Positions 19,269 to 36,184 of a DNA stretch of 64,000 nucleotides are shown piece after piece. The notes under the pieces are model-generated. The model ran no database searches, had not been told where the DNA came from, and was given only the letters and a program-made list of their open reading frames with translations. Numbering within the stretch: the stretch's first letter is position 1; every line of letters starts with the position of its first letter. Origin of the DNA: Deltaproteobacteria bacterium RIFCSPLOWO2_12_FULL_60_19 (GTDB taxonomy: Bacteria > Desulfobacterota > Binatia > UBA9968); contig MGSS01000064.1 in the NCBI GenBank assembly GCA_001798595.1, positions 1 to 64,000 of the forward strand, read 5' to 3'. The translations under genes and the position numbers were made by a program.

Positions 19269-19356
19269 CGCTCTCCGAGCCCGCGCAATGGGGTGCTGCT
19301 TAATCCCACCGGCGGTATCGGATGCGCGGGCTGTTCGACCGCGCGGCGCCTTTCAC
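19269..19356 (-). repeat. Dispersed repeat R3 copy 2 (inverted relative to 8182-8270)
   Basis: Reverse complement reads AGCCCGCGCATCCGATACCGCCGGTGGGATTAAGCAGCACCCCATTGCGCGGG. Confidence 0.8.
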
Positions 19357-19453
19357 TCGCGTCCGGTGCCGTCGCCCTTCAAGACTCGCCCCAAGCGCTA
19401 CGCCGCGTCGCGATCTGTTTTCGTGGCATGGATCGTTGAAGCTAAGGTTTTTA

Positions 19454-20626
19454 ATGGCGGTGAATGAGGTGGGGAACGAGCGCAAGCGGATCATGCTGGT
19501 GGTGGGCGAGGCCTCCGGAGATCTCCACGGCTCGCGCGTTGTCCGGGCGTTGCATCAGAAGGAGCCGGCCGTGGAGATTTCGGCGGTGGCCGGCGAGGCG
19601 CTCCGAGCTGAGGGCGTAAAGGTCCTGTTCGAGGTCGGCCGGCTCACCGGAATGGGGTTCTCCGAGCTCGCCGGCAACCTGGCCAATCTCTGGCGAGCCT
19701 ACTCGGTGCTCAAACGGGAGTTGACGGAGCGCCGGCCCGACCTGCTGATCTTGATCGACTTTCCGGAGTTCAACCTGCGCCTGGCGCGGATCGCCAAGCG
19801 GTTGGGGGTTCCGGTGTTGTACTACATCAGCCCGCAGGTCTGGGCGTGGCGCAAGCGCCGCGTCGCGGAGATCGCCCGCTCGGTGGATTGCATGGCCGTG
19901 GTCTTTCCCTTCGAAGTTCCGCTGTACGAAAAGGCCGGCCTCCGGGTTGAATTTGTCGGCCATCCACTGCTGGAGGTCGCCCGGTCGACGCGTACTCGCG
20001 AAGAAACTTTGGCTAATCTCGGTCTCGATCCGGCGAAGCTCACCGTCGCTATGCTGCCGGGAAGCCGCCGGCGCGAGGTGGCCTATCACCTGCCGGTGAT
20101 GATGGAAGCCGCCGAGCTTCTAGAGCGGGAGATGGCGGTGCAGTTTGTTCTGGTTCGGGCGAGCACCGTCCACGACAGCGGAATGACGCAAGCGCCGGAT
20201 CAAGCAGCGGCCTGGGTTTCGATCAGCGACGGGGATGTGTATAATGTGCTCCACGCGTGCGACCTGGCCTGGACCGCTTCGGGCACGGCGACGCTTGAGA
20301 CCGGCCTGATGCTCCGGCCCATGATCATCGTCTATCGCCTCGCGCGGCTGACGTATGCTCTGGCGAGACTGCTGGTGCGGGTGGAGCACGTCGGGATGGC
20401 CAACATCCTCGCCGGAGAGAGAGTGGTCCCTGAGTTGATTCAAACGGAGATGACGGCTCGCCGCATTGTCCACGAGAGCAAGGCGATTCTCGGCGATCGA
20501 GGGACGCGCGAGCGTATCGTCGCCAAATTGGCCGGAGTGCGGGAGAAGCTCGGCCAGCCGGGCGCCGCCGGGCGCGTGGCGGATCTCGCCCTGCAGTTGA
20601 TGGGTGAGGCCCGGCTCGACTCATAG
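19454..20626 (+). CDS. lpxB: Lipid-A-disaccharide synthase
   Basis: MLVVGEASGDLHGSRVV; ISPQVWAWRKRRV; LPGSRRREV. Confidence 0.96.
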   Translation: MAVNEVGNERKRIMLVVGEASGDLHGSRVVRALHQKEPAVEISAVAGEALRAEGVKVLFEVGRLTGMGFSELAGNLANLWRAYSVLKRELTERRPDLLILIDFPEFNLRLARIAKRLGVPVLYYISPQVWAWRKRRVAEIARSVDCMAVVFPFEVPLYEKAGLRVEFVGHPLLEVARSTRTREETLANLGLDPAKLTVAMLPGSRRREVAYHLPVMMEAAELLEREMAVQFVLVRASTVHDSGMTQAPDQAAAWVSISDGDVYNVLHACDLAWTASGTATLETGLMLRPMIIVYRLARLTYALARLLVRVEHVGMANILAGERVVPELIQTEMTARRIVHESKAILGDRGTRERIVAKLAGVREKLGQPGAAGRVADLALQLMGEARLDS

Positions 20627-20641
20627 AGCGAAGGAGAAAAC

Positions 20642-22396
20642 GTGAAGCAGGTTTGGCGCTTATTCCCATTTGTTAAACCCTACCTCTGGCCCTACTTCGT
20701 TTTGTCGTTGGTCTGCATGGCCGCTTTCGGCGGCAGCAGCGCGTTTTTGCCGTATCTCGTGCAAAACGTGTTCGACGACGTCTTCGCGCAAAAGAATGAA
20801 GCGGTGCTGGCCTATCTTCCGGTGGTGATCGTAGTCGTCTTTGTTTTTCGCGGCGCGGTGAACTTCGGCCAGAGCTATCTGAGTTCCTATGTCGGCCACG
20901 GAATCATCAACGACGTCCGAAACGCAATTCACCGGCACTTCCAGACCCTGTCTCTCTCGTTCTTTCATCGCAACCCGACCGGCACGCTGATCTCTCGCGT
21001 CACCAATGACGTGAACCTGGTGCGCGGCGTGCTGACGGATGCCGTGGCCTCTTTTATGCGCGACGCCGTTTCGCTCGCGGCTTTGACGGTCGTGGCGTTT
21101 CTTAAGGACCCGCTGCTCGCCAGCATCGCCTTTGTCGTATTCCCCGCCTCCGTCTATCCCATCATGCGGCTGGGCAAGAAGATCAAGCGCGTCACCAAAC
21201 GCGGGCAGGTGGCGAAAGGACTTTTGACCAGCATCCTGCAAGAGAGCATCCAGGGAAATCGCATCGTCAAGGCGTTCGGGATGGAGAACTATGAAATCGA
21301 GCGCTTTCAGCAAGAGAATCGTCGCGTCTTCAAGCAGGCGCTGCGGAGTAGCCGGACGCAGTCCATGGTGCAGCCGTCGATGGAGCTGCTGGCCTCTTTT
21401 GCGATCGGCGCAGTCGTCTGGTACGGCGGTCACAGCGTCATCGGGGGCGGGCGCAGCCAGGGTGAGTTTATCGCGTTTCTGGTAGCTATGTTTCTCATGT
21501 ATCAGCCCTTCAAGGGGCTCGCCAAGACCTACACGATGATCCATCAGGGTATTGCCGGCGCCGAACGGATATTTGAGGTCCTCGACGCCGACCCGGAGAT
21601 CAAGGACCGGCCGGGAGCGCAGCCGGCGCCGCGCTTTGCGCGGGAGATCGGATTTCACAACGTGAGTTTCGGCTACGCCCGCAAGCTCGTTCTGAGCGAC
21701 ATCGATTTGAAGGTCCGAGCGGGAGAGATGGTCGCGCTGGTCGGCGTCAGCGGAGTCGGCAAGAGCACGCTGGCGGATCTGGTGCCGCGCTTTTACGACG
21801 TGACGGCGGGCAAGATCACGATCGACGGCGTCGATATCCGCGATGTCACCGTGGAATCGTTGCGCTCGCAAATCGGGATCGTGACCCAGCAGACGTTTCT
21901 GTTCAACGATACCGTCAAGAACAACATTGCCTATGGGGATCCGACGAAGGACATGGATCATATCGTCGTCGCCGCCAAGGCCGCGCATGCCCATGAGTTC
22001 ATCGTGGCGATGCCCCAGGGCTACGATACGATGATCGGCGAGCTGGGAGTGAGGCTTTCAGGGGGGCAGCGCCAGCGGCTGGCGATCGCGCGGGCCCTAC
22101 TCAAAGACGCGCCGATTCTGATCCTGGACGAGGCGACGTCGTCGCTGGATACCGAGTCGGAAATGCTGGTGCAGCGAGCTCTGGAGAACCTGATGGTTCG
22201 CCGGACGACCTTGGTGATCGCCCATCGTCTCTCCACGATACGCAATGCGAACCGCATCGTCGTGCTGGTGGATGGGAGAATCGCGGAAGAGGGGACCCAC
22301 GAAGAGCTGCTGGGGCGGGAGTCGGAATACAGGCGGCTCCATACGCTCCAACTGCTGGAGGATGAAGGCGCTCACTCCGGCAAGGTTCTCCATTGA
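20642..22396 (+). CDS. msbA: Lipid A export ATP-binding/permease protein MsbA
   Basis: ABC exporter with TM domain and NBD ([43 protein letters not shown]). Confidence 0.93.
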   Translation: MKQVWRLFPFVKPYLWPYFVLSLVCMAAFGGSSAFLPYLVQNVFDDVFAQKNEAVLAYLPVVIVVVFVFRGAVNFGQSYLSSYVGHGIINDVRNAIHRHFQTLSLSFFHRNPTGTLISRVTNDVNLVRGVLTDAVASFMRDAVSLAALTVVAFLKDPLLASIAFVVFPASVYPIMRLGKKIKRVTKRGQVAKGLLTSILQESIQGNRIVKAFGMENYEIERFQQENRRVFKQALRSSRTQSMVQPSMELLASFAIGAVVWYGGHSVIGGGRSQGEFIAFLVAMFLMYQPFKGLAKTYTMIHQGIAGAERIFEVLDADPEIKDRPGAQPAPRFAREIGFHNVSFGYARKLVLSDIDLKVRAGEMVALVGVSGVGKSTLADLVPRFYDVTAGKITIDGVDIRDVTVESLRSQIGIVTQQTFLFNDTVKNNIAYGDPTKDMDHIVVAAKAAHAHEFIVAMPQGYDTMIGELGVRLSGGQRQRLAIARALLKDAPILILDEATSSLDTESEMLVQRALENLMVRRTTLVIAHRLSTIRNANRIVVLVDGRIAEEGTHEELLGRESEYRRLHTLQLLEDEGAHSGKVLH

Positions 22397-22402
22397 GGTG
22401 TC

Positions 22403-23689
22403 GTGGGCTATCCACTCTACAATGCGCTGCTTGCGCTCAGCACCGTCCTGTTCCTGCCTGTATTGCCGATCTTGCTGCTTTCGGGAAAACGGTTCCGTGA
22501 AGGCTTTTGGCAACGCTTCGCTGTTTATTCGAGGGCCACGCGCGAGGCCGCGCTGGGCTCGAAGCCGATTTGGATCCACGCGGTCTCGGTCGGCGAGGTG
22601 CTCGCGGCACGGGGGATAGCCGCTCGGTTAAAAGCTCTCTTGCCGGATAAAAAAATCCTGGTTTCAACCTTCACCTCCACAGGCAACGCCGTGGCGCGAG
22701 AGAACCTGGCCGCTGCGGACATGATCATCTATCTGCCGCTCGATTACCCCTGGGTGGTGCGGCGCGCGCTCAAGCTATTCGATCCGTCCTTACTGATTAT
22801 CTTTGAGACCGAGATATGGCCGAATCTTCTGCGCGCGGCGGCCGAGCGGGGAACGCCGGCGCTGCTGCTCAGCGGAAGATTGTCGCGGCGCTCGTTTCGC
22901 AGGTATCATTTGCTTCGGCGGTTTTTCGCCGCCGTGTTGCAGCAGTTTGCCGCGCTCGGCATGCAGAGCCGGGAGGATGCCGAGCGCATCGTCCGGCTGG
23001 GGGCCGACCCGCGCAAAGTCTCGGTTACCGGAAATCTCAAGCGCTCTTCCGCGCCGGCGGGCGAGAGCCGCGCCGGAGGGAAGTGGCGGGACCTCACCGG
23101 TCTCGGCGCCGGGTCCGGCCGGGTGCTGGTGGCCGGGAGCACGCATCGCGGGGAGGAAGAGATTTTACTGAACGCCTTTGTTTCTTTGAAGCAGCGCTTT
23201 CCCGACCTTGTCATGGTGTTGGCGCCGCGCCATCCCCAGCGCTTCGCCGAAGTCGAGAAACTGATCGAAAAGAGCAATTTGCGCTACGTGCGGCGCAGCC
23301 GGCTGAACGGCCGGCTGGGCCAAGCGCCCGACGTGCTGTTGCTCGACACGATCGGGGAGTTGGCGGACTTCTACCGCGTGGCGGACGTGGCTTTTGTCGG
23401 GGGAAGCCTGGTCGATGCGGGTGGCCACAATTTGCTGGAGCCGGCGTGGCATAGAAAACCGGTTTTGTTCGGGCCATGGGTCGGCGGCTATGCGGAGATC
23501 GCGGCGGAGATGAAGCAGAGCGGCGGCGGCGTCGAGGTCGGCGGAAAAGAGGAATTTGTTTTAGCAGCGTCCCGGCTCCTGTCGGACCGGGAGCGCGCGC
23601 GAACGGCAGGGGAGAAGGCCTATCAGGCGGTCCAGGCGACCGGCGCCGTCGTTGAAAAGAGCATGGAGCTTGTTTCTCGCTATGTGTAG
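22403..23689 (+). CDS. waaA: 3-deoxy-D-manno-octulosonic acid transferase
   Basis: IWIHAVSVGEVLAA; PLDYPWVVRRAL; FETEIWPNLLRAA; GGSLVDAGGHNLLEPA. Confidence 0.95.
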   Translation: MGYPLYNALLALSTVLFLPVLPILLLSGKRFREGFWQRFAVYSRATREAALGSKPIWIHAVSVGEVLAARGIAARLKALLPDKKILVSTFTSTGNAVARENLAAADMIIYLPLDYPWVVRRALKLFDPSLLIIFETEIWPNLLRAAAERGTPALLLSGRLSRRSFRRYHLLRRFFAAVLQQFAALGMQSREDAERIVRLGADPRKVSVTGNLKRSSAPAGESRAGGKWRDLTGLGAGSGRVLVAGSTHRGEEEILLNAFVSLKQRFPDLVMVLAPRHPQRFAEVEKLIEKSNLRYVRRSRLNGRLGQAPDVLLLDTIGELADFYRVADVAFVGGSLVDAGGHNLLEPAWHRKPVLFGPWVGGYAEIAAEMKQSGGGVEVGGKEEFVLAASRLLSDRERARTAGEKAYQAVQATGAVVEKSMELVSRYV

Positions 23690-23698
23690 GGCGGACGG

Positions 23699-24799
23699 GT
23701 GTCAGGGGAGATGAGTGCGGATTGGGCTCGCGGGATCTGGGACCGGAAGGGAATCGCGTCCCGGATCCTCTGGTTGCTGCTCCTTCCCCTGTCGTTTCTC
23801 TACGGCCTTGGGGCGCGGGTCCGAAACCTGCTCTATTCGCTCGACTGGCTCCACCCGAAGGGCCTCCCCCGACCGGTGGTGAGCATCGGGAATCTGACCG
23901 TCGGCGGAACCGGCAAAACCCCGACCACGCTCTGGCTCGCCGACCAGCTGGAGCGGCGAGGTTATCGGGTGGCGATACTCAGCCGCGGCTACAAGCGGTC
24001 TGAGAAACAGTGCGTCATCCTTGAGCCGCGCGGCGAAAACGGTCATTTTTTCAGCGAGGCCGAGGAGCTTCGGGCCGCCGGCGACGAGCCGGTGATGATG
24101 GCGCGCGTGTTCGGCCACCGCGTCGGCGTCGGGGCGGTGCGCTATGAAGTCGGCGCGCAGATGCTGCGGGACGGAGAGGTGGACGTGTTCATTCTTGACG
24201 ACGGCTTTCAACACCGCCGGCTCAAGCGAGACCTCGACCTGCTCTTGCTCGGTTTGGATTGGGAGGGATGGTTGATTCCCGCGGGCCCGTTTCGTGAGCC
24301 TCGAAGATCGCTCAACCGGGCCGACCTCTGCCTGGTGACCGGCGCGCGAGAGAGATGGGAGAAACTGCTCCGGGGCAGGCCGGCGGAGACGATCTTTTCC
24401 GGCGCGCTTGAGCCGCGGGCGCTGGTCGGCCTGGAAGCGGGGCGATGGAAAGAGTATCCGTTGACGATTCTGGGACGTAACAAGGTGCTCGCCGTGGCGG
24501 GCATCGCGGACCCGGGTCCCTTTTATCATGTGATCGACGAATGGGAAGGCGAGATCGTGGACACGATGCAATTTCCCGATCACTACAACTATTCGGCGCG
24601 GGATTGGCAAGATATCAATCGCGCCGCACGGGAAGTCGATCTGATCGTGACCACTGAAAAAGATCTTGTCAAGTTGGCGCGCTTTCCGTTCGCCCGGGAG
24701 AAACTCCTCGCGTTGCGCGTCGAGATGACGGTGGAAAACGGAGAGGCGCTGGTCCAGGCGGTGGAAAAGGTGATCCGAGGCAAGCAGCCGGAGTTTTAG
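23699..24799 (+). CDS. lpxK: Tetraacyldisaccharide 4'-kinase
   Basis: VVSIGNLTVGGTGKTPTTLWLA; ILSRGYKR; FILDDGFQHRRLKRDLDLLLL. Confidence 0.96.
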   Translation: MSGEMSADWARGIWDRKGIASRILWLLLLPLSFLYGLGARVRNLLYSLDWLHPKGLPRPVVSIGNLTVGGTGKTPTTLWLADQLERRGYRVAILSRGYKRSEKQCVILEPRGENGHFFSEAEELRAAGDEPVMMARVFGHRVGVGAVRYEVGAQMLRDGEVDVFILDDGFQHRRLKRDLDLLLLGLDWEGWLIPAGPFREPRRSLNRADLCLVTGARERWEKLLRGRPAETIFSGALEPRALVGLEAGRWKEYPLTILGRNKVLAVAGIADPGPFYHVIDEWEGEIVDTMQFPDHYNYSARDWQDINRAAREVDLIVTTEKDLVKLARFPFAREKLLALRVEMTVENGEALVQAVEKVIRGKQPEF

Positions 24800-24805
24800 A
24801 CAGAC

Positions 24806-25393
24806 ATGGGCGTCGTGAAGCGTCCAAGTCCCGCGGCGCTGCTTGACCGCGACGGCACCGTGATCCGTGACGTCGGCTACCTCAGGCGCGTCGAGGAGAT
24901 CGAACTGCTGCCCCGGGCGGCGGACGCGATCGGACTCCTCCGCCGGCACGGCCTAAAGGTTGTGATCGTCACCAATCAGTCGGCTGTGGCGCGCGGTCTT
25001 CTTACGGAAGCAGAGTTGGCGGCGATTCACCGTGAGCTGGCCCGGCGGCTGGCCGACGGCGGCGCGCCGCTGGACGGTCTTTACTACTGTCCGCACCACC
25101 CGACGGAGGGATGGGGGGCTCATCGGCGGGCGTGCGAGTGTCGCAAGCCGAACATCGGTCTGGCCAAGCGCGCGGCGGCCGAGCTTCATTTGGATCTCGG
25201 TCGCTGTTACGTCGTCGGCGACCAGCGGAGCGACATGGAGTTCGCGGCGCGCATTCCCGCACGGGGCTTCTTGCTGCAATCCGACGCGGCGCAGAGGGCG
25301 GCCGAGGCTGGGATCGAGCGCTTCTCTCTGGTAAAGGATTTGTGGGAAGCCGCCGAACTTATCGTCGAGGATATGGAACGGAAGGAGTCGTAA
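24806..25393 (+). CDS. gmhB: HAD-family D-glycero-D-manno-heptose-1,7-bisphosphate 7-phosphatase
   Basis: LLDRDGTVIRDVGYL; VTNQSAVARG; CECRKPNIGLA; VGDQRSDME. Confidence 0.92.
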   Translation: MGVVKRPSPAALLDRDGTVIRDVGYLRRVEEIELLPRAADAIGLLRRHGLKVVIVTNQSAVARGLLTEAELAAIHRELARRLADGGAPLDGLYYCPHHPTEGWGAHRRACECRKPNIGLAKRAAAELHLDLGRCYVVGDQRSDMEFAARIPARGFLLQSDAAQRAAEAGIERFSLVKDLWEAAELIVEDMERKES

Positions 25394-25400
25394 CAGGCGC

Positions 25401-26342
25401 ATGGTTTCATTGATCACAGGGGTAGCGGGCTTTGTCGGCTCGCACCTGGCCGAGCGGCTGCTCGGCGAGGGCCATCGGGTGCGCGGCGTCGATATGTTTT
25501 TGGGAAACTATCCTCGCCGCTACAAAGAACGGAATCTCTCCCGCTTCAACGCGCATCCCAGTTTCGAGTTTATCGAATCGGATCTGCTCCGGCTCGACCC
25601 GGCCGGTCTGCTGCGCGATGTTTACTATGTCTTTCACCTGGCCGCACAGCCGGGCGTGCGCGCGAGCTGGGGACAGGAATTTTCCCAATACACGCACCAC
25701 AATATCCTGGTGACTCAGGCGCTGCTCGAAGCGAGCAAGGGGAGCGGCATCAAGAAATTCGTCTACGCGTCGTCGTCGTCCGTCTACGGGGACACCCAGG
25801 ACCTCCCGATGCGCGAGACCGGCATGACCCGGCCGGTCTCGCCCTACGGCGTGAGCAAGCTCGCGGCCGAGCAACTCTGCTACCTTTACTGGAAAGAGTT
25901 CGCCGTGCCCACGGTTTCCCTCCGCTACTTTACCGTTTACGGGCCGCGCCAGCGGCCGGACATGTTTTTTCACATTCTGATGCGCGCGCATCATCGCGGC
26001 GAAGCGATCCCGCTCTACGACGACGGCGGGCAAAGCCGCGACTTCACCTTTTGCGCGGACATCGTCGAGGGAACCTTCGCCGCCGCTCTCTATCCGGGGT
26101 CCGGAGAGGTTTTCAACCTCGGCGGCGGGTCGCGCACGACGATCACCGAGGCGCTGGCGATGGTTGAAGAGATCTCCGGAAAGAAGCTGAAACTCAACCG
26201 GCTGGAGCGCCAGAAGGGCGACGTGCGCCACACCGCGGCCGAGATCGCCGCGGCGCGCTCCAAGCTCGCCTTCAATCCCCGCGTCAAGTTATTCGACGGC
26301 CTCGTCCAAGAGTGGGATTGGATACGGCAGATCGCCGAGTAG
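25401..26342 (+). CDS. NAD-dependent epimerase/dehydratase (extended SDR)
   Basis: LITGVAGFVGSHLAERLL; YASSSSVYG; SPYGVSKLAAE. Confidence 0.92.
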   Translation: MVSLITGVAGFVGSHLAERLLGEGHRVRGVDMFLGNYPRRYKERNLSRFNAHPSFEFIESDLLRLDPAGLLRDVYYVFHLAAQPGVRASWGQEFSQYTHHNILVTQALLEASKGSGIKKFVYASSSSVYGDTQDLPMRETGMTRPVSPYGVSKLAAEQLCYLYWKEFAVPTVSLRYFTVYGPRQRPDMFFHILMRAHHRGEAIPLYDDGGQSRDFTFCADIVEGTFAAALYPGSGEVFNLGGGSRTTITEALAMVEEISGKKLKLNRLERQKGDVRHTAAEIAAARSKLAFNPRVKLFDGLVQEWDWIRQIAE

Positions 26343-26347
26343 CGGCG

Positions 26348-27535
26348 TTATCGCTTTTGCGCCTGAGTCTGCGCCCAGCGGCCTGCAACTTCGAGCGTCG
26401 CTCTCCAAGCCCGCCGCGCCCGCCTAGAAATCGCATACGCCGCCAGTCGCCATAAACTGTTCACCCCGCAGAGACGCTGAAGATATGCGGCAAAGCCGGG
26501 CAGGTTATATTTCGAACCGGCGCCGGGCTCCAGGCGCAGATAGTTGAACCAATGAAGCGGCAGATAACCGAAAGGCTTCGCGCCGTAGTTCCGACTTTTA
26601 TACCGGTATTCGATCCGCTCCAATCTGGAGGTGGGCATATTCTTAAGGCGGCGCAACACCTCGGCGGGGATGGGGGCATCGAAGCGATCCCGCAGATAGG
26701 TGAGGGCCGCTTTGAGTGGGCAGAGCAGACGGCGCTGTTCCGTCTGCGCGAGCAGCCGTTGCCAATCCAGCTCGGATGTCGAGCCGTTGATGATCGCTAG
26801 GGCGTCCGCGATCCAGCGGAACGGCGGCAGCGGATCCCATCGCACGCCGTGCGCGCAGACGTGCAGCAGGTGGTCGGTTGAATTCAACGTGTAACTCGAC
26901 ACCTCATCGATCTTTAGGGTGACCGCTCCGTCCCAGAGGTCATCGTCCGCATCGGGCCGGCAGCATTCTGGGAAGACATGCCAATGAAGATCGAATCTCC
27001 GGCCCGCCGCGTCCCTGAACCCGAACCCGTGGCCGACCGACAGGTAAGTTTCGTGCAGAGTTTCCGGCCAACTGTCCGCGGCCACCCAGCCTGAACCCTG
27101 CAAGAAGCGGACGGCCGTCAACGCCTGCCCTCTCCGGACCAGAACATCGAAGTCAGCCATAGGACGAAGCCCGTAGTCCCGGTAATACAGCAAAACCAAA
27201 GGGACCCCTTTGAGCACCAGCGTGTCGATACCAAGGTCGTGAAGAGAGCGTAGCAGAGCCGCCATGTGGCGAAACGAGATTTGGTTCTTATACCAGGTCA
27301 GACGATAAACACCCTTGAGCTTGTCCACCAGGGGCCCTCGGATTCCGTGCGCGTGAACATTTTTGTAAAGCTGCGGGAGCAAGCGGTACGAGGCGGCATC
27401 GAGCCGGTCCGGATGGACGCTCGATCTCCATTCATCCCAGGCGGCGATCACCTGTGGCCCTCGCAGGAGCGCGGCGCGCAAGAGCAACTCTTGCTCCGGG
27501 GTAGGCCAACAGTCGGTTTTAACCCTTGGGTTCAT
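26348..27535 (-). CDS. Nucleotidyltransferase-family protein (NTP_transf_5-like, PF14907 type)
   Basis: LGIDTLVLKGVPLVLLYYRDYGLRPMADFDVLVRRGQALTAVRFL; FDLHWHVFPEC. Confidence 0.85.
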   Translation of the reverse strand: MNPRVKTDCWPTPEQELLLRAALLRGPQVIAAWDEWRSSVHPDRLDAASYRLLPQLYKNVHAHGIRGPLVDKLKGVYRLTWYKNQISFRHMAALLRSLHDLGIDTLVLKGVPLVLLYYRDYGLRPMADFDVLVRRGQALTAVRFLQGSGWVAADSWPETLHETYLSVGHGFGFRDAAGRRFDLHWHVFPECCRPDADDDLWDGAVTLKIDEVSSYTLNSTDHLLHVCAHGVRWDPLPPFRWIADALAIINGSTSELDWQRLLAQTEQRRLLCPLKAALTYLRDRFDAPIPAEVLRRLKNMPTSRLERIEYRYKSRNYGAKPFGYLPLHWFNYLRLEPGAGSKYNLPGFAAYLQRLCGVNSLWRLAAYAISRRARRAWRATLEVAGRWAQTQAQKR

Positions 27536-29717
27536 CGTCGTTTGCGGAACCTTCTCCACCGTCGCGAGCCGCATTCCGGCGACGATCCAAGGCGGCCTTG
27601 AGAACCCGCACATAGTCCGTCCGCGCCCAGCGCTGCACGATGCCTTGATTGGCGGCATGGAGCCTCCGCCGCAACAGAACGTCCGGCAAGACTATGCTTT
27701 TGAGCCCGATCTGCCGGGCTCTCGCATACCAGTCGATGAATTCTCCCACTTGCCAGGAGACCTCGAACGGTCCGACGCGGGAAAAAGCCGCGCGCGTGAC
27801 GAGCATCGTCGAGCAGGAATATCCCGGCATCGCCACCGTCGGGCAATAGATTTTCTTCTTGGCCTCTTCGGGCAAATCCGGACTGTGAAAATGTCGCACA
27901 TGCCCAAAGGCGATGTCCAATCCGGGGTCTCGGTCAAAAGCGGCCGTCTGAAGAGCGAGTTTATCTTCCGTCCACAGGTCGTCCGCGTCGAGGAACGCGA
28001 GGTAACGGCCCCGCGCCGCGTCGACGCCGCGATTGCGCGCTGCGCCGATTCCGGCATGGGGTTGCAAACAATATCGAACGGCAGAACCGAAACTCTGGGC
28101 CACTTGGCCGCTGTCGTCAGTGGAGCCGTCGTCCACGACGATGATTTCGAGCGGGCGATAGCTCTGCCGCAGCGCGCTCTCGATGGCCTCTCCTAAGTAG
28201 CGCTCGCAGTTGTAGACGGGAATAATCACGCTTACGAGCGTCTCTCCGTCGTTCCGTCTCGCCGAATCGCGCTTCCGTTTGCGGTGCATGGACGATTTTA
28301 CGGCGCGTAAAAACTCTGAATTCCGGGGTTCGGTCCTATAGGATCGGTTGGCGGCGTGGAGACGCCGGTACAGGAGAATCTCAGGTAAGATCGTCATCGG
28401 CATGCCGGCTTCTTTAGCCCGAAAGAACCAGTCCGTGTCGTTGGCGTGCGCGTAACTGGGATCGAAGTCGCCGATCTTCGCAAGAGCTGTTCTCCGGGCA
28501 ACCAGGGTGCTGACGTATAAACCCGCGTGTTCGGTCAATAAAAGATCCTGTGTCATCCGCTGAGGCCGGGGAGTCCCCGGCTCGACGAAGTTCCGCGCTC
28601 TGGCGGTCACATAGCCGGCCTCGGGATGCTTAAGGAGATAACCGATCTGCAGACTGAGCTTGCGGGGCGCCCACAAGTCATCGGCGTCCAGAAAGGCGAG
28701 AAACTCCCCTGTGGCGGCGGCGATGCCGGCATTCTTCGCCGTCCCGTGGCCCTGATTTGCCTGGTGGATATACCGGACCTCCCCGTAGGATTTGGCGACC
28801 GCGGCGGTTCCATCCAGCGAGCCGTCGTCGACCACAATTACCTCCAAGGGGCGGTAATCTTGGGCGAATATGCTGTCGAGGGCAGCGGCCAGGAAACGCT
28901 CGCCGTTGTAGACCGGCACGACAACGCTCACCAGGGGCCTTGCCGGCGGTTTACGCCCTTCGGCGATGGTGCCCGGCCTCGCCGCCCTTTCCCACTGGTA
29001 GCTGCTCACTTGCGGCAGCGATCGCGCGACGCCGTGATTTCGCCTCCGGCGATCCAACGACTGTTTCAGCATTTTTATCAGGTGGGCGTCGTTCACCTCT
29101 TTTCGCTCAGTTATGTTGCGGTCGTGTCGCCGGCAAAAAAGAACGACCTCGTCGCGGATCTCCATAGCGACGCTTCTCTCTCTCGCCCGCATAAACCAAT
29201 CCCAGTCATCGCAGTGCCTGAGCGTCTCATCGAACCGGCCGACTTTCTCGAACACGGATCTCCTGAAAAGGCCACAGCCTAAACTCAACGCCGTCAAAGG
29301 GTCGGAAGAGATCTCGAAACGAAGCCTGCCGTCGACCACGCCGGTCAGGCGCATGTTCTGCCGGCGGCCGAGGACGATTTCCATAGACGGGGCGGCGGCG
29401 AGATGCGCCAGTTGCGCTTTGAGCTTGTCTTCCGACCATAGGTCGTCCGCATCCAGAAAAGCGATCAGCTCTCCGTTCACGGCTTTCAAGCCGCGGTTGC
29501 GGGCCGCCGGCGGCCCGCCGTTTTCCTGAAAAATGTAGCGGACGTTTGGAAAACGTGCGGCCACCGTGGATGTGTCGTCGGTCGAGCCGTCGTCTACGAC
29601 GATGATTTCGAGCGGGTCATAAGCCTGCCGTCGGATGCTCTCGATCGCTTCCGCCAGAAAAGCTGCGCCGTTATAGACGGGGATGATCGCGCTGACGGAA
29701 ACCGGTTTCGTAGGCAT
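27519..29717 (-). CDS. Multidomain glycosyltransferase with three tandem GT2 domains (732 aa)
   Basis: Three repeats of (V/I)SxIIPVYNxxxFLxxAxxSIxxQ..YxPLEIIVVDDGSTDD...FLDADDLW in one uninterrupted ORF. Confidence 0.93.
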   Translation of the reverse strand: MPTKPVSVSAIIPVYNGAAFLAEAIESIRRQAYDPLEIIVVDDGSTDDTSTVAARFPNVRYIFQENGGPPAARNRGLKAVNGELIAFLDADDLWSEDKLKAQLAHLAAAPSMEIVLGRRQNMRLTGVVDGRLRFEISSDPLTALSLGCGLFRRSVFEKVGRFDETLRHCDDWDWFMRARERSVAMEIRDEVVLFCRRHDRNITERKEVNDAHLIKMLKQSLDRRRRNHGVARSLPQVSSYQWERAARPGTIAEGRKPPARPLVSVVVPVYNGERFLAAALDSIFAQDYRPLEVIVVDDGSLDGTAAVAKSYGEVRYIHQANQGHGTAKNAGIAAATGEFLAFLDADDLWAPRKLSLQIGYLLKHPEAGYVTARARNFVEPGTPRPQRMTQDLLLTEHAGLYVSTLVARRTALAKIGDFDPSYAHANDTDWFFRAKEAGMPMTILPEILLYRRLHAANRSYRTEPRNSEFLRAVKSSMHRKRKRDSARRNDGETLVSVIIPVYNCERYLGEAIESALRQSYRPLEIIVVDDGSTDDSGQVAQSFGSAVRYCLQPHAGIGAARNRGVDAARGRYLAFLDADDLWTEDKLALQTAAFDRDPGLDIAFGHVRHFHSPDLPEEAKKKIYCPTVAMPGYSCSTMLVTRAAFSRVGPFEVSWQVGEFIDWYARARQIGLKSIVLPDVLLRRRLHAANQGIVQRWARTDYVRVLKAALDRRRNAARDGGEGSANDDEPKG

Positions 29718-29720
29718 CGC

Positions 29721-30800
29721 CTAACTCCGAGCCAGTAACCCGAGGATGATGTCGGGCATTTTGCCCACGTCGGTTCCGAGCTCCAAGTGATAACAAGGGA
29801 CCTGCTTCACGACCGCGGCCATCGCCGCCATCGCCGCATCTCCCGCGCCCGATAGCTGAAAGAGCGTGCTCGGCGCGAGGGCCTTGAGCGCGGCGGCGGC
29901 CGACGCCGGCTTCCATGCGGTCTCCCGATTATCCGTGATGCTCGGCAGGAGAATCGCGCGAACCGGAAAGCCGGACGCGATGTTTTCCGGGTAAAGTTTG
30001 CGCAGAAACAAGAGCGCTTTTTCCGAACGAAGGCGATCCGCATTGCTGATGGCCGGTGCGAGATGCGGAAATCTCCGTATGCCGCCCGCGTCCAACTTGG
30101 CCGAGTTGTAAAGACTATAAGCGTGCGGGGAAGGCTCTTGGGCCAGCAAGCAATAGTCGTCACTGACGTAGAGCAGCTTCGAGCCGAGGCAGGCGAGGGT
30201 CGTGGTCGACTTGCCGGAACCGCCTTTGCCGACCAACAGCACGCCGCCCGCAGACGTTCCGATTGCGCCCGCATGGACCAACTGGCGTCCGTGGTCGCGC
30301 ATCCACCAATGGAGAATCGCTCGCAGCGGCGCGCCGCTTTCATAGTAGGGCAGGCGGCGCGCGTCACGGACCCAGAAAAACGCCAGATCGCGCTCCTTAT
30401 CGAGAATGCTGAGAGCATCGGCCCCGATATGGAATGCGGTCTCGATCCGTCGGTCAGAATAGCCGCACACCTCGCCGCGCGCGATATAGTCGCCCGTAGA
30501 CCAGGGAGGCGAGGGCATTTTCGTTCCGGTTGAGGCGCTGTCCCACAGGCAGACGGTCAAGGCGGACGGCGAGCCGGGCGGAATCGCCAGGTGTCCCAGC
30601 GCCGGCGTGATGAGCGGCAAAAGAGCGGGGCTGGCGAAGCGGAGACGAACGATGTAGCCGCCGATCCTGTAGAATCGGTCTATCGGCTCTCCGGCTGCCG
30701 CCTCGGCGCGCTGAAAGGTTTGAGAGACGGTTTCAAGAAAGGCGAGGGCCGCGTCCCCGGAAGTCTCGGGAGCGACGGACGGCACTACGGCGCTAGTCAT
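29721..30800 (-). CDS. HPr kinase-related kinase (HprK-rel-A type)
   Basis: P-loop GKGGSGKSTTTLACL; position between PqqD-like and glycosyltransferase genes. Confidence 0.8.
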   Translation of the reverse strand: MTSAVVPSVAPETSGDAALAFLETVSQTFQRAEAAAGEPIDRFYRIGGYIVRLRFASPALLPLITPALGHLAIPPGSPSALTVCLWDSASTGTKMPSPPWSTGDYIARGEVCGYSDRRIETAFHIGADALSILDKERDLAFFWVRDARRLPYYESGAPLRAILHWWMRDHGRQLVHAGAIGTSAGGVLLVGKGGSGKSTTTLACLGSKLLYVSDDYCLLAQEPSPHAYSLYNSAKLDAGGIRRFPHLAPAISNADRLRSEKALLFLRKLYPENIASGFPVRAILLPSITDNRETAWKPASAAAALKALAPSTLFQLSGAGDAAMAAMAAVVKQVPCYHLELGTDVGKMPDIILGLLARS

Positions 30801-31260
30801 CGTCCTTGGGAGAGGTCGGTTTAGTGTTGGGCCAGCCCGTTTCGTCGACCTCGTGAATCGGATCGAGCAGGATCAGCTCCTGCATGTCGGTAAATTTCTC
30901 CAGGTGAGGCGGCTCGAAAGCGGTTTTTTGGCTTGCAGGCGCCGCAGGCGCGCGCGTTTCCGCCTGGCCTCCCGGTTCCTTCGCTCCGTCGGCGACGATC
31001 AGATTTTCCAGCTCCAGTTCGGCGATCAAGCGCTGGATCCCGTCTTCGATCTCCGAGCGGCTACCCTCGTAACGGCCGGCGATGGCCTCGACAATTTTGC
31101 CGAGCGCGGCGCCTGCTCCAATGAACCCCCACACGTCGGCCCCCGCCTTGCTCAGACTGTAATAGCTGCCCGTCTCGAAGTTGATGATCACCACTTCGTC
31201 GTCGAAAGCCTCATCGATGACTTTAGGCCGGTTGATTCGAAAACGTCTGGACGACGCCAT
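30793..31260 (-). CDS. PqqD-family protein with C-terminal peptide-like extension
   Basis: Residues 1-91 PqqD-like (EVVIINFETGSYYSLSKAGADVWGFI...LIAELELENLIV); residues 114-155 FEPPHLEKFTDMQELILLDPIHEVDETGWPNTKPTSPKDDD. Confidence 0.85.
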   Translation of the reverse strand: MASSRRFRINRPKVIDEAFDDEVVIINFETGSYYSLSKAGADVWGFIGAGAALGKIVEAIAGRYEGSRSEIEDGIQRLIAELELENLIVADGAKEPGGQAETRAPAAPASQKTAFEPPHLEKFTDMQELILLDPIHEVDETGWPNTKPTSPKDDD

Positions 31261-31398
31261 GCCCTATTCCTCCCGCCTCGTCGGAATATATATCGCCGAT
31301 AACGTCAGGGCAAGGCAAAGCGCTCCGATGGATCGGGTCGTTTGATTTAACTCGAACCCGATGGCATAAAGAGAGGGAGAATCGCGGAGGCGTCGGCT

Positions 31399-31569
31399 AT
31401 GTCGATCAGTCAAGAGTTGTTGGAGATTCTGGCCTGCCCGAAATGCAAAGGCGAGATCCATCTGAACGCGTCGGCAAGCGGACTTGTCTGCGATGCCTGT
31501 CGCCTGGTCTATCCGATCCGGGATGACATCCCCGTCATGCTCATCGACGAAGCGACCAAACTGGATTGA
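31399..31569 (+). CDS. Trm112-family zinc-ribbon protein (56 aa)
   Basis: [56 protein letters not shown]; absent from supplied ORF track. Confidence 0.9.
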
Positions 31570-31652
31570 GCGGCTGCCGGCCCTCAACCATCAGCGGTCA
31601 GCCATGAGCCGAGAGGGGCGATCTCAAAAGGAGCGCTGAAAGCCGAACGCTT

Positions 31653-32747
31653 ATGGCCGAGAGTGAAAAGATTCTTTTGGTTCAAACCAGCTTTCTCGGC
31701 GATCTGATCTTGACCACTCCGCTCCTCGCCGAAATTCGCCGCCGTTTCCCCCGCGCGCTGATCTCCGTCTTGTGCCGCCGCGAGTTAAGGGACGTTTTGG
31801 CGGGCGATCCGGAGATTCACGAAGTCATGACCTACGACAAGCGGGGCCCTCGCGGCGGATGGACCGGCTTGTGGCGCATGGCGCAAGAGCTCCGCGCGCG
31901 AGGCTTCGACATGGCTTTGTCGGTCCATAAGTCGCTGCGCACGGCGTTGCTGCTCTTCTTGGCCGGGATTCCGCTTCGCGTCGGCTTTCGACAGAGCGCC
32001 GGGTGGTTTCTTTATCACCGGAGGCCGAGGCGGGCCGCCGCGCGCCACGACGTCGAACGGAGCCTGTCGCTCCTCAGCGCCGTCGAGATCGATCCGCGGA
32101 CGACGAAACCCGCGCTGCGCGTCGAAGTGAGCGCGCAGGTTCGGGCCGATGTCGAGCGAATATTTCGCGCTTGCGGGATCCGCGGCGACGGAATTATTTT
32201 CGGCGTCAACCCCGGCTCGGTCTGGGCGACCAAGCGATGGACGCCCGAGGGCTACGCGGCGCTGATCGGCCGGTTGCGCGAGAGTTACGGCGGCGAGGTC
32301 CTGCTGTTCGGCGGTCCCGACGATCGCGAGGTGGTCGAGCGAATTCTCGATCTCTCGAATCACGGGGGCACGAGCCTCGTAGGGAAAATCGGTCTCCGCG
32401 AGCTTGCCGGGGCCATTGAGCGCTGCCGTGTCTTTATCACCAATGACAGCGGGCCGATGCATGTCGCAGTTGCGCGCGGCGTTCCCACGGCCGCGATCTT
32501 CTGCGCGACAACTCGGGAGCTGGGGTTTTATCCTTACAGCTCCAATGCGGTGGTCATCGAGAAGGCGTTGTCGTGCCGCCCCTGTGCGCCTCACGGCGGG
32601 CTCAGATGCCCGCTCGGGACCGAGGACTGCATGCGTTTGATCTCCGCCGCCGACGTGATGCGCGGCGTGGAGCTCTTGTTGAACCGCGATCGCCGCCGGG
32701 ATGCCGGGGGAGTCGATTCCTGTTTTCCCCTGACTCTCGGCGTCTAG
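31653..32747 (+). CDS. waaF: Glycosyltransferase family 9, heptosyltransferase II-like
   Basis: ILLVQTSFLGDLILTTPLLAEIRRRFP; NPGSVWATKRWTPEGYAALI; CRPCAPHGGLRCPLGTEDCM. Confidence 0.9.
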   Translation: MAESEKILLVQTSFLGDLILTTPLLAEIRRRFPRALISVLCRRELRDVLAGDPEIHEVMTYDKRGPRGGWTGLWRMAQELRARGFDMALSVHKSLRTALLLFLAGIPLRVGFRQSAGWFLYHRRPRRAAARHDVERSLSLLSAVEIDPRTTKPALRVEVSAQVRADVERIFRACGIRGDGIIFGVNPGSVWATKRWTPEGYAALIGRLRESYGGEVLLFGGPDDREVVERILDLSNHGGTSLVGKIGLRELAGAIERCRVFITNDSGPMHVAVARGVPTAAIFCATTRELGFYPYSSNAVVIEKALSCRPCAPHGGLRCPLGTEDCMRLISAADVMRGVELLLNRDRRRDAGGVDSCFPLTLGV

Positions 32748-32756
32748 TTGGTTCTC

Positions 32757-33521
32757 ATGCCCACCGTCGGCGTCGTTATTTTCAGCACGGAGAGCATGAA
32801 GCATCTGGCCGAGTGCTTGAACAGCGTGGCCTGGGCGGATGAGATTTTGATGCTTCACGCCGGCGCGCCGCCGCCGGAGCTTCCAACGATCGCGGGCCGG
32901 CCGATCAAGTTAAAGACGGTGGATTCTCTGGTCGAGGCCGCCGCCCCGTGCGAGGAGATCGACAGCGAGTGGGTGCTGCGTTTGTGGGGCGAGGAGCGCG
33001 TTGAGCCGGAGCTCAAGGAGGAGTTGCAGGCATTGCGCCAAGGCGGGTTAAAGGACGGCGGATCGACTTATCGGGTCCCGATTCGCTCTTATCTCCTGGG
33101 CGGATGGGCGATAGGGAGCGTCTCCGGTGCGAGCCCCGCCCTGCGGCTCTACCAAAAGAGCGTCGGCCCCGGAGTCGGCTCGCGGATCAAGACCGAAGAG
33201 GCAAGAGTTTTGCGGCGCGGCTGGATCGAAGACTATTCCTGCTCGGAGCTGAGTCGCGCGGTCGATTACGTCCAGCTTCTCAGCGACTTTTGGGCGCGGC
33301 GGTCGGGCCTCAGGAAGGCGCCGCCCGGCGCGATGCGGGCGGCGCTTGGTTCGCTGCGGGTTTTTTTTCGGATACTCGTTGCCAACGGAATATTTTTTCG
33401 CGGGCTGGCGGGCGTGGCGTTAGCGGCGCTGGCCGGCTATGCGGTGCTGCTGTCGGAGGCGAAATTGTGGGAAGCGAAATACGCGGGGGCGCGGGAAAGC
33501 GCGCCTAAGCAGGCGCCATGA
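32757..33521 (+). CDS. WaaE/KdtX-like GT2-fold protein with degenerate active-site motifs
   Basis: VGVVIFSTESMKHLAECLNSVAWADEILML; DSGSTDRT absent; LDADE position reads LWGEE; WaaE-like C-terminus. Confidence 0.65.
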   Translation: MPTVGVVIFSTESMKHLAECLNSVAWADEILMLHAGAPPPELPTIAGRPIKLKTVDSLVEAAAPCEEIDSEWVLRLWGEERVEPELKEELQALRQGGLKDGGSTYRVPIRSYLLGGWAIGSVSGASPALRLYQKSVGPGVGSRIKTEEARVLRRGWIEDYSCSELSRAVDYVQLLSDFWARRSGLRKAPPGAMRAALGSLRVFFRILVANGIFFRGLAGVALAALAGYAVLLSEAKLWEAKYAGARESAPKQAP

Positions 33522-34291
33522 CGGCATCGGCCTGGCTCTGGGGCGAGCTTCCCGACGGGTTCAAGAGAGTTGACGAGCTTCCGGGGCGGATTGTGATCGT
33601 GCGGCGGGACGTGGAGACCTTTATTCCCGTCGACGCGCTGTTCGCGCAAGGGGAAATGTCGGAGGATAGCCGTTTTGTCGGGAGAGCGAGGCTCGGCCTG
33701 GTAAGGCTCGCCAACGGCGAGGAGGCGTTGTTGCGTCCCTACCGCCACGGAGGGTTGCTGCGCGGTTTGACTCGCGGGATATTTTGGACCTGGCCGCCGC
33801 GCCCGCTAAGGGAGCTGGCGGTCACCGAAGCGGCGCGCCGCAGAGGGGTGGCGACCGCCGAGATCGTCGCCGCTCTGGTGGAGCGGGTCGCCGGGCCGCT
33901 TTACCGTGGATGGCTTGCGATTCGCGTGCTTGAAGGCGCCCTCGATCTGTGGAGCGCCCTGCAAGGGCATGAGTTTGCCGCCGGCGGTAAATCGGCGATG
34001 ATTCGCGCTGCGGCTCAAGCGGTAAGGGAGATGCATCGCAAGGGCGTGTATCACGGCGATCTTAACCTTAAAAATATTCTAATTCGGCCCGAGGGCGGCG
34101 GACTCAAGGCCTACGTGATCGATCTGGACAAGGCGATTCTCTTCCCGCGCGAGGTGCCGGCGCGAAAAGCCCGGGCCAACCTCGCGCGCCTGCGCCGTTC
34201 GGTTTGCAAGCTGGACCCGCAGGGACTGCGCGTGTCGGGGGCCGACTGGGAGGCGCTCATTCGCTGCTATCAAGGCGCTGCGCACGCATGA
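33518..34291 (+). CDS. Kdo kinase/WaaP-family LPS core kinase
   Basis: REMHRKGVYHGDLNLKNILIRPEGGGLKAYVIDLDKAILF. Confidence 0.88.
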   Translation: MTASAWLWGELPDGFKRVDELPGRIVIVRRDVETFIPVDALFAQGEMSEDSRFVGRARLGLVRLANGEEALLRPYRHGGLLRGLTRGIFWTWPPRPLRELAVTEAARRRGVATAEIVAALVERVAGPLYRGWLAIRVLEGALDLWSALQGHEFAAGGKSAMIRAAAQAVREMHRKGVYHGDLNLKNILIRPEGGGLKAYVIDLDKAILFPREVPARKARANLARLRRSVCKLDPQGLRVSGADWEALIRCYQGAAHA

Positions 34292-35328
34292 AGCCGAGCC
34301 CGAACAGGATCTTGATCGTGCTGCACGGATCGGTCGGCGACGTCACCCGGGCGATTCCCCTGGCGAATCTCGTGCGCAAGGGGTTTCCTCAAGCGTTTAT
34401 CGCATGGGCGGTCGAGCCGGCCTCCGCGCCGCTGGTGGAGCGGCATCCGGCGATCGACGAAGTCATCGTATTTGGGCGCGCCGACTGGCGCCGCAGTCTA
34501 TGGCCGTTTCTTCGACGGATACGCGCGCATCGGTTCGATCTGGCTCTGGACCTCCAGCGGCATCTCAAGAGCGGTCTCATCAGCTGGTGGTCCGGGGCGC
34601 CCGCGCGGGTCGGATTCCACCGCCGCGACGCCAAGGAGCTGAACTGGGTGTTCAACAACCGGCACATTCCGCCGGCGGAGGCCGGGACTTCAAAGCTCGC
34701 GGATTACTTGAAGTTTGCCGAGCTTCTCGGTATAGAGCCGCATCCCATCGCATGGAATTTTTCGCTGGCGGCGGACGAAGCGGAGCAGGTCGGCGCGATC
34801 GTCGACGCGGTCGGGGCCCCGTTCGCCGCTTTCTACGTGGGAGCGCGATGGGAAAGCAAGCGCTGGTTTCCCCGCGAGACGGCGAAAGCCGCGGCCGAGG
34901 TTCACCGGCGCTACGGGCTTGAGGTCGTTCTCCTGGGAGGGCCGGAGGACGTCCCGTTCTCGCAGGAGGTCGAGCGCCACGCCGCCAGTCGACTATTCGA
35001 TTGGACCGGCCGGACAACGTTGCGCGAAGCGATCGGGATTTTAAGCCGCGCGAAGATCGCGGTCGGGCCGGACTCCGGTCTCATGCATCTCGCGGCGGCG
35101 GTCGGGACGCCGGTCGTCTCGCTCTGGGGAGCGACGGACCCGGCGCGCACCGGACCTTTCGGGTACGAGCGGTTGCTGGTTGAGGGAAGGGCGGCTTGCG
35201 CGCCGTGCTATCTCAGACGCTGCCCGATCGGACGGGTTTGCATGCGTTCCATCACGAGCGAGAGCGTTGTCGAAAAAGCCGGCGAGGCGCTCTCCTGGAA
35301 AGGCGGAAATCGTGGCGCGGCCCGCTAG
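34288..35328 (+). CDS. waaC: Glycosyltransferase family 9, heptosyltransferase I-like
   Basis: ILIVLHGSVGDVTRAIPLANLVRKGFPQAFIAWAVEP; CAPCYLRRCPIGRVCM. Confidence 0.88.
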   Translation: MKPSPNRILIVLHGSVGDVTRAIPLANLVRKGFPQAFIAWAVEPASAPLVERHPAIDEVIVFGRADWRRSLWPFLRRIRAHRFDLALDLQRHLKSGLISWWSGAPARVGFHRRDAKELNWVFNNRHIPPAEAGTSKLADYLKFAELLGIEPHPIAWNFSLAADEAEQVGAIVDAVGAPFAAFYVGARWESKRWFPRETAKAAAEVHRRYGLEVVLLGGPEDVPFSQEVERHAASRLFDWTGRTTLREAIGILSRAKIAVGPDSGLMHLAAAVGTPVVSLWGATDPARTGPFGYERLLVEGRAACAPCYLRRCPIGRVCMRSITSESVVEKAGEALSWKGGNRGAAR

Positions 35329-36184
35329 CTACCTGCGGCGTTACGACGGCGGCTGGCGTCTCCTCGTTCTTCGGGACGCGTGGAGCGATGCCTTCTGGGC
35401 GGCGGTGCGCTCGGAACTGGAAAACGCTGCGCCGGCGCGCCATCCTTTGACCCGGCGCTTGCGTTTTCCGTGCGGGAGCGGAGGCCGCGATTATTTTTTG
35501 AAGCTGTACTTTCCGTCGACCGGCGTTGCCGGCGGCCTCAAAGATCTGCTTCGCGATTCAAAAGCGCTCCGCGCTCTGAAGCAGGGCGAGGCGCTGAGCC
35601 GCAACGGCTTTCACGCCCCGCCGGCGATCGCGGCGGGGGAAGAGAGGATGTGCGGCCTGCTCAGACGCGCATTTTTGTTGACGGTCGAGATCGAGGCCCG
35701 GCCGATCGCGGCGCTGCTGCGCGAGCAGTTCACGCCGCCGCTCGACCGCATGCGGTTGGCGAGAAAGCGGGCCTGGCTGAGAAAGCTGGCGCTCGAGACC
35801 CGCAGGCTCCACGAACTCGGCTTTGTTCACGGCGATCTTGTCCCGTCGAACATCTTCGCCCGGCCGGAGCAAGAAGAGGTGACGTTTTTCTACATGGACA
35901 ATGACCGAACGCGGCGCTATCCCGCCTGGACGCCACAGCGGCTTTGGCGGAGAAATCTCGTCCAGCTCAACCGCTTCGTTCTGCCCGGGATCTCGCTCCA
36001 GGATCGGATGAGATTTTTGCGTGGCTATCTCGGAGAGCGCCCTTGGACCGAAGGCGAGCGGCGCCTGATCCGTTGGCTGGAGTCAAAGACGCGGCAGCGA
36101 CGCAAGGAATGCGAGCGGATCGAAACACCAGTCAGTTTTCGGGAGCTTATGAGATGGAACGGCCCTTTCGCCCGAAATTCCTAA
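35312..36184 (+). CDS. Kdo kinase/WaaP-family kinase
   Basis: RRLHELGFVHGDLVPSNIFARPEQEEVTFFYMDNDRTRRYPAW; GTG start at 35312 overlaps previous stop. Confidence 0.85.
   Translation: MARPASYLRRYDGGWRLLVLRDAWSDAFWAAVRSELENAAPARHPLTRRLRFPCGSGGRDYFLKLYFPSTGVAGGLKDLLRDSKALRALKQGEALSRNGFHAPPAIAAGEERMCGLLRRAFLLTVEIEARPIAALLREQFTPPLDRMRLARKRAWLRKLALETRRLHELGFVHGDLVPSNIFARPEQEEVTFFYMDNDRTRRYPAWTPQRLWRRNLVQLNRFVLPGISLQDRMRFLRGYLGERPWTEGERRLIRWLESKTRQRRKECERIETPVSFRELMRWNGPFARNS

Follow-up and report, generated by a model that had tools for sequence, protein, structure and literature searches.

A PqqD-type RiPP recognition element with a highly conserved, leader-like C-terminal tail in a kinase and glycosyltransferase cassette of many phyla

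The DNA analysed here (the window) is a stretch of 64,000 nucleotides of contig MGSS01000064.1 from Deltaproteobacteria bacterium RIFCSPLOWO2_12_FULL_60_19. On its reverse strand, positions 30793-31260 encode a protein of 155 aa in which a PqqD-type RiPP recognition element (RRE) is joined through a linker to a tail; the original prediction had described a PqqD domain followed by an Ala/Pro/Gly linker and a tail, and this is exactly what the ORF contains. The RRE domain (aa 10-91; 30988..31233, reverse strand) was delimited by Pfam, AF2 (pLDDT 95-97) and Foldseek. PF05402 (PqqD) spans aa 22-88 (E = 5.3e-11; 43.1 bits against a Pfam cutoff of 23.4), the AF2 model has a beta3-alpha3 winged-helix fold, and the best Foldseek matches in the PDB are lasso RRE-leader (TbiB1-leader) complexes (5v1v and 5v1u; TMt 0.89). 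The curated cutoff of the NCBIfam model lasso_PqqD_Bac (NF033536) is missed by the window RRE (42.1 bits against 80), and TIGR04353 gives no match to the protein. The linker (aa 92-111; 30928..30987, reverse strand) is rich in Ala, Pro and Gly, variable, low in conservation and modelled with a pLDDT of 62-66. With F115, at window position 30918, as the start of the tail and the gene's stop codon ending at 30793, two parts were distinguished on the reverse strand: a leader-like proximal half (aa 112-124, KTAFEPPHLEKFT; 30889..30927) and a near-invariant distal half that is predicted to be loose (aa 125-147, DMQELILLDPIHEVDETGWPNTK; 30820..30888). PDB matches of tail segments to Tektin-3 and restin were rejected as chance.

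The RRE-tail gene is followed on the same strand by three further genes. Its stop is overlapped by the start of a gene (29721..30800) for a kinase of 359 aa, whose model (pLDDT 95.2) has the HprK/PEPCK fold and whose sequence profile matches HPr kinase structures. The match of this kinase to TIGR04352 (E = 1.4e-9; 37.4 bits) lies below the curated cutoff of 200, and its Walker A residues G194-G196-K197 and H176 are invariant in 57 relatives. Three bases after the kinase stop begins an ORF of 732 aa (27519..29717), in which PF00535 is recognized in three stretches and GT2 HMM matches lie at 6-228, 260-485 and 492-718; it is a tandem fusion of three GT2 domains, which are elsewhere in these cassettes separate genes of about 230 aa. 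The last gene (26348..27658) encodes an NTP_transf_5 nucleotidyltransferase (PF14907, E = 8.8e-40), the true start of which is probably near 27535. The window cassette is situated within a lipid A/core LPS locus (19322-36184), where lpxK, an HAD phosphatase, two heptosyltransferases and two Kdo/WaaP-type kinases were identified by Pfam and LpxB-like, MsbA-like and Kdo-transferase-like ORFs were read by eye; the window msbA belongs to these LPS genes.

A similar gene set recurs around related RRE-tail genes. Among 86 scanned loci, the kinase was found in 79, GT2 in 79, NTP_transf_5 in 65 and an MsbA-like ABC transporter in 41; the corresponding numbers for the 34 full-length loci are 32, 34, 32 and 21, with two or more GT2 domains in most of these. 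The RRE-tail gene is usually the first of the cassette, and the next cassette gene is no more than 40 bases away in most loci. RRE, linker and two-part tail form one obligate protein, encoded in an operon with the kinase, NTP_transf_5 and several small GT2 enzymes. The same order was found on a cyanobacterial plasmid, on which the genes are annotated as PqqD family, nucleotidyltransferase, HPr kinase, methyltransferase and glycosyltransferase A. In 14 loci a single gene encodes both kinase and GT2, and a fusion of this kind (643 aa) is also seen in the second cluster of the window's own genome (L105, 9474-11402). The commonest additional neighbours are sulfotransferases (12 and 4 matches) and sugar epimerases. 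No peptidase recurs, none being present in the 25 commonest neighbour families (100 proteins scanned), nor does a B2 leader peptidase family recur among the cassette neighbours, and radical SAM proteins make up only four of 100 neighbours. A macrolactam cyclase was sought as an SGGxDS ORF among the predicted genes and as a family in the neighbour tally, and was found in neither. Apart from the fused tail, no ORF with the leader motif, and hence no separate precursor, was found in the fetched loci, in which the small-ORF families look like frame shadows.

A motif-based scan of 84,980 genomes, one per species, yielded 148 relatives, and 80 loci were kept. By their record titles, these belong to well over ten phyla, among them Cyanobacteria, Chloroflexota, Bacteroidota, Acidobacteriota, Planctomycetota, Nitrospirota, Verrucomicrobiota and Pseudomonadota, and a second RRE-tail protein is encoded in the window's own genome. 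A scan of viral contigs with the full-length protein gave no relative. In 78 of the 80 kept loci the tail motif is fused to a PqqD protein; of the two exceptions, one (L071) ends at a contig edge and the other (L072) has no recognizable PqqD upstream. In L072 (1541-1837) the motif lies on a short ORF, on a contig that is possibly chimeric or rearranged. Stand-alone small ORFs carrying the tail motif, which had been proposed as something to look for, were searched for and no convincing copy was found. One further locus (L085), from a MAG titled Klebsiella pneumoniae, encodes the same protein as a genome of the window's class (G051); its species label is doubtful.

Because the genome scan had selected for the tail motif, the presence of the tail was retested through the neighbouring kinase. 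A kinase search among 117 relatives detected the kinase in ten genomes, namely all seven of the genomes with the tail and three with a variant tail. This kinase-found set was extended by samples of three phyla, loci reached through the tail being left out, and the tail was present at each of the 30 kinase-found loci that have a PqqD gene next to the kinase: 25 tails belong to the type seen in the window (type 1) and five to a second type (type 2). Two loci (L138 and L139) were at one stage taken to be tail-less, until the wider sequence showed that the stretch had been cut; both have the tail. Given the second copy in the genome, the 148 relatives and these 30 loci, the tail is not a chance feature. 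Its conservation exceeds that of the RRE, with 3.30 bits per column in 83 aligned proteins as compared with 2.10 for the RRE and 0.80 for the linker, and with 3.26 as compared with 2.28 for the RRE in the kinase-found type-1 set (n = 18). Poor conservation of the tail and the lack of a family-wide motif, which were to be expected if the original prediction had been wrong, were not observed in the relatives. The type-2 tails (L101-L104 and L147; YxxPxLxxYxDMxxLxALDPPxPG) share the leader half with type 1 and differ in the distal half, of which they keep little beyond LDP. In L062 (9671-10153) and L077 (5693-6193) the terminal GWP of the tail occurs twice (GWP...GWPT).

The proximal half resembles the peptides to which such domains bind. 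Discrete lasso and LPP (linear polyphosphorylated peptide) RREs bind a leader motif, [Y/W]xxPx[L/V/I/F/A] (PMC13381572), and F/Y/W115, P118 and L120 of the tail are spaced as in this motif, the proximal consensus being FxxPxLxK[YF]. In the AF2 model, run as a single chain with an alignment of 83 sequences, the mean pLDDT rises to 95 for aa 111-120, beyond the loose linker, and DSSP assigns strands to aa 113-114 and 121-123. Five rows of this alignment (L002, L004, L005, L007 and L008) came from the genome search, and loci of this origin were left out of the second modelling run. In the PbaB1-PbaA complex, the N-terminal part of the leader is held by backbone bonds and the residues that follow the conserved leader Leu (-9 to -7) extend the RRE sheet; the predicted tail strands match these leader positions, with aa 121-123 after L120 corresponding to residues -9 to -7.

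Additional evidence was obtained from covariation. Asp70 of LppB binds the hydroxyl of the leader Tyr, a contact that is seen in solved RRE-leader complexes, and by profile alignment to 9x8z it is equivalent to position 74 of the window RRE (31039..31041, reverse strand), which is Gly in the window protein; position 74 was fixed beforehand on this basis. Among 87 sequences, Asp74 accompanies Tyr115 in 8 of 14 and Phe115 in only one of 68 (p = 7e-7), which ranks best of 435 residue/column tests, and within type 1 alone the association (p = 7e-4) is again the best, of 411 tests. As the pooled p value is inflated by relatedness, the weight is carried by the held-out kinase-found sequences, in which Asp74 is present in all three with Tyr115 and in none of the 15 with Phe115 (p = 0.0012), and by the number of origins of the Tyr115 and Asp74 pair, about seven on the RRE tree. 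The pair 74-115 also appears, though not at the top, when mutual information is calculated for the columns of tail and RRE; because of phylogenetic noise this was not used as proof. The RRE pocket positions 78, 82 and 87 are conserved. The aromatic residue at 115 is absent in three kinase-found families (L137, L140 and L138/L139), so that the groove contact is not universal. From the three independent lines, namely the motif match, the predicted order and the covariation, we infer that the proximal half probably occupies the peptide groove of the RRE, either in cis or in a dimer-swapped manner. The protein would then very probably be an RRE with a built-in leader, and the part of the original prediction that called the tail precursor-like is borne out in its proximal half, as a leader mimic.

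The distal half presents a different picture. Its consensus, DMQxLLLLDPIHEVDExGWP, is nearly invariant, and D125, L130, D133, P134, H136, V138, G142, W143 and P144 are invariant in the 18 kinase-found type-1 sequences. When modelled alone, however, it is predicted to be loose, with a pLDDT of 78 and then of 54-64. Such a combination of predicted looseness and near-invariance is what would be expected for a segment that takes up its fold on binding to a partner. No Ser or Thr is conserved in the tail, and none occurs after position 120 in the genome's second copy (L002) and in L034. T/S124 was rejected as a universal kinase target, since it is present in 92% of type 1 but is mostly Arg in type 2 and Glu in the second copy. 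Asp133 is invariant in 83 tails and by the YxxP spacing sits where LPP precursors have their phosphorylated Ser, a post-hoc observation that is not counted as evidence. In a natural fusion (L130/L146; L146, 7174-9120, from a genome of the cyanobacterial sample), one ORF of 649 aa contains RRE, tail, a second partial RRE and kinase; the tail lies inside this ORF, which continues into the kinase, and is therefore not a free C-terminus there.

Several readings of the distal half have to be weighed. It might be a core modified by the kinase, NTP_transf_5 and GT2 enzymes while still attached, as in borosins, whether as a glycan carrier or for later release by a housekeeping protease. Such a built-in precursor would agree with a tail in which a displayed segment comes after a leader-like half, with a leader half common to types 1 and 2 whose distal halves differ, with the leading position of the gene in a tight operon that has little space for another precursor, and with the kinases and NTP enzymes of paeninodin/pseudomycoidin and LPP clusters, which modify RRE-bound precursors. 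RiPP core peptides are usually variable, whereas this segment is near-invariant; moreover, it offers no conserved Ser or Thr, it is internal in the L130/L146 fusion, and no peptidase recurs nearby, so that the reading is unlikely. Of the built-in leader and core that had been proposed, the leader half thus stands, and a product-forming core is less supported. A related and rather improbable possibility is a RiPP-like system common to many phyla, with recognition element and peptide in a single protein, whose distal half would be a reusable, covalently anchored carrier, on which kinase, NTP transferase and GT2 would build a phospho-glycan. The near-invariance itself would be explained if the distal half were processed into a small molecule that is always the same, as PqqA is into PQQ or MftA into mycofactocin, and the mycofactocin system also employs an RRE and a GT2 enzyme; but neither radical SAM proteins nor peptidases recur, and type-2 tails retain little of the distal half, which makes this the least probable of the readings.

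Two further readings were considered. If the tail were a pseudo-leader blocking the RRE until the true precursor, encoded elsewhere, displaced it, the predicted filling of the groove by a leader mimic would be accounted for, and the tether would raise the local concentration of the tail. This kind of autoinhibition is quite improbable, as none of the fetched loci encodes a leader-motif peptide that could be this precursor and the high conservation of the distal half is left unexplained. That the tail merely stabilizes the RRE, with neither partner nor product, is very improbable, since the most conserved part is the one predicted to be loose. On balance we prefer to regard the distal half as a docking or activating element rather than as a product, a reading that is somewhat probable.

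We propose that the RRE is naturally loaded in cis. The proximal half would fill the groove as lasso and LPP leaders do, so that the RRE would always be loaded, and the loaded RRE may plausibly present the distal half to the cassette enzymes as a docking or activating element, most simply to the kinase, for which the original prediction had named a docking peptide as one alternative. The real acceptor, a sugar, a lipid or a leaderless peptide, would be supplied from elsewhere. This proposal takes together the leader motif, the AF2 order, the covariation, the tails of all 30 kinase-found loci and the L146 fusion with the lack of a conserved Ser/Thr, of a separate precursor and of a recurrent peptidase in the loci studied, and it draws on the constitutive activity of engineered leader fusions. 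One locus (L081) keeps the tail in a genome that gives only remote HprK-like matches, which speaks weakly against the kinase as sole partner. The proposal as a whole, in which the distal half docks or activates HprK, NTP_transf_5 and GT2 partners, we consider marginally probable.

RREs are defined by their gripping of a separate leader peptide. In the present family, found in many phyla, the leader is apparently fused onto the RRE, and laboratories have deliberately done likewise so that RiPP enzymes no longer depend on a leader. No description of the cassette or of a natural RRE-leader fusion was found in the literature searched. If the proposal is true, RRE-tail clusters will escape searches that expect each RRE to have a precursor gene next to it, and the cassette would be a natural test of the effect of a permanently loaded RRE on kinases and glycosyltransferases. 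In one survey, 21% of PF05402 proteins exceeded the size of a discrete RRE with no other annotated domain (PMC12710340), and the RRE tail accounts for some of these oversized proteins.

The cassette has a discrete RRE, an HprK-like kinase and an NTP transferase in common with the LPP clusters of Bacillota (PMC13381572), which are likewise rich in glycosyltransferases and use a YxxP-type leader. The MsbA-like exporter of LPP clusters has a counterpart in 21/34 full-length loci, the msbA of the window being one of the LPS genes. However, the LPP precursor is a separate peptide (YxxPxVLxHQxIxFETxxS), whereas in the present family the leader-like segment is part of the RRE protein; the LPP core has a phosphorylated Ser three residues in, where the same spacing leads here to Asp133 with no Ser conserved; and the SpI-like leader peptidase of LPP clusters has no recurrent counterpart among the cassette neighbours. 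This situation differs also in that GT2 genes are a fixed part here and that many phyla are covered. In LPP and paeninodin-type clusters a Ser of the precursor is the target of the kinase, which phosphorylates it, and hexose addition has been linked to the NTP enzyme. The paeninodin/pseudomycoidin lasso clusters also possess an RRE (B1), a kinase (K) and a nucleotidyltransferase (N), and the window RRE is closest to lasso RREs in the PDB and NCBIfam, but no lasso cyclase, B2 protease or separate precursor was found here. Since a separate precursor, a phosphoserine and a leader peptidase were sought and not found, the cassette was not assigned to the LPP or the paeninodin type. The HPr-rel-A system (TIGR04352/TIGR04353) likewise has an HprK_rel_A-related kinase beside a PqqD-family protein, but the window kinase lies far below the curated cutoff and TIGR04353 is unmatched. 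Functionally, the nearest known thing would by analogy be the engineered leader-enzyme fusions, which are constitutively active and act on leaderless substrates (PMC10604976; PMC11048544). In the engineered LctM, LynD and ThurKC, a tethered leader keeps the recognition site filled, as is proposed here, whereas the RRE-tail protein is natural, is built on a discrete RRE and carries a conserved distal half as well; it would thus be a natural counterpart of these laboratory fusions, which act on substrates that have no leader.
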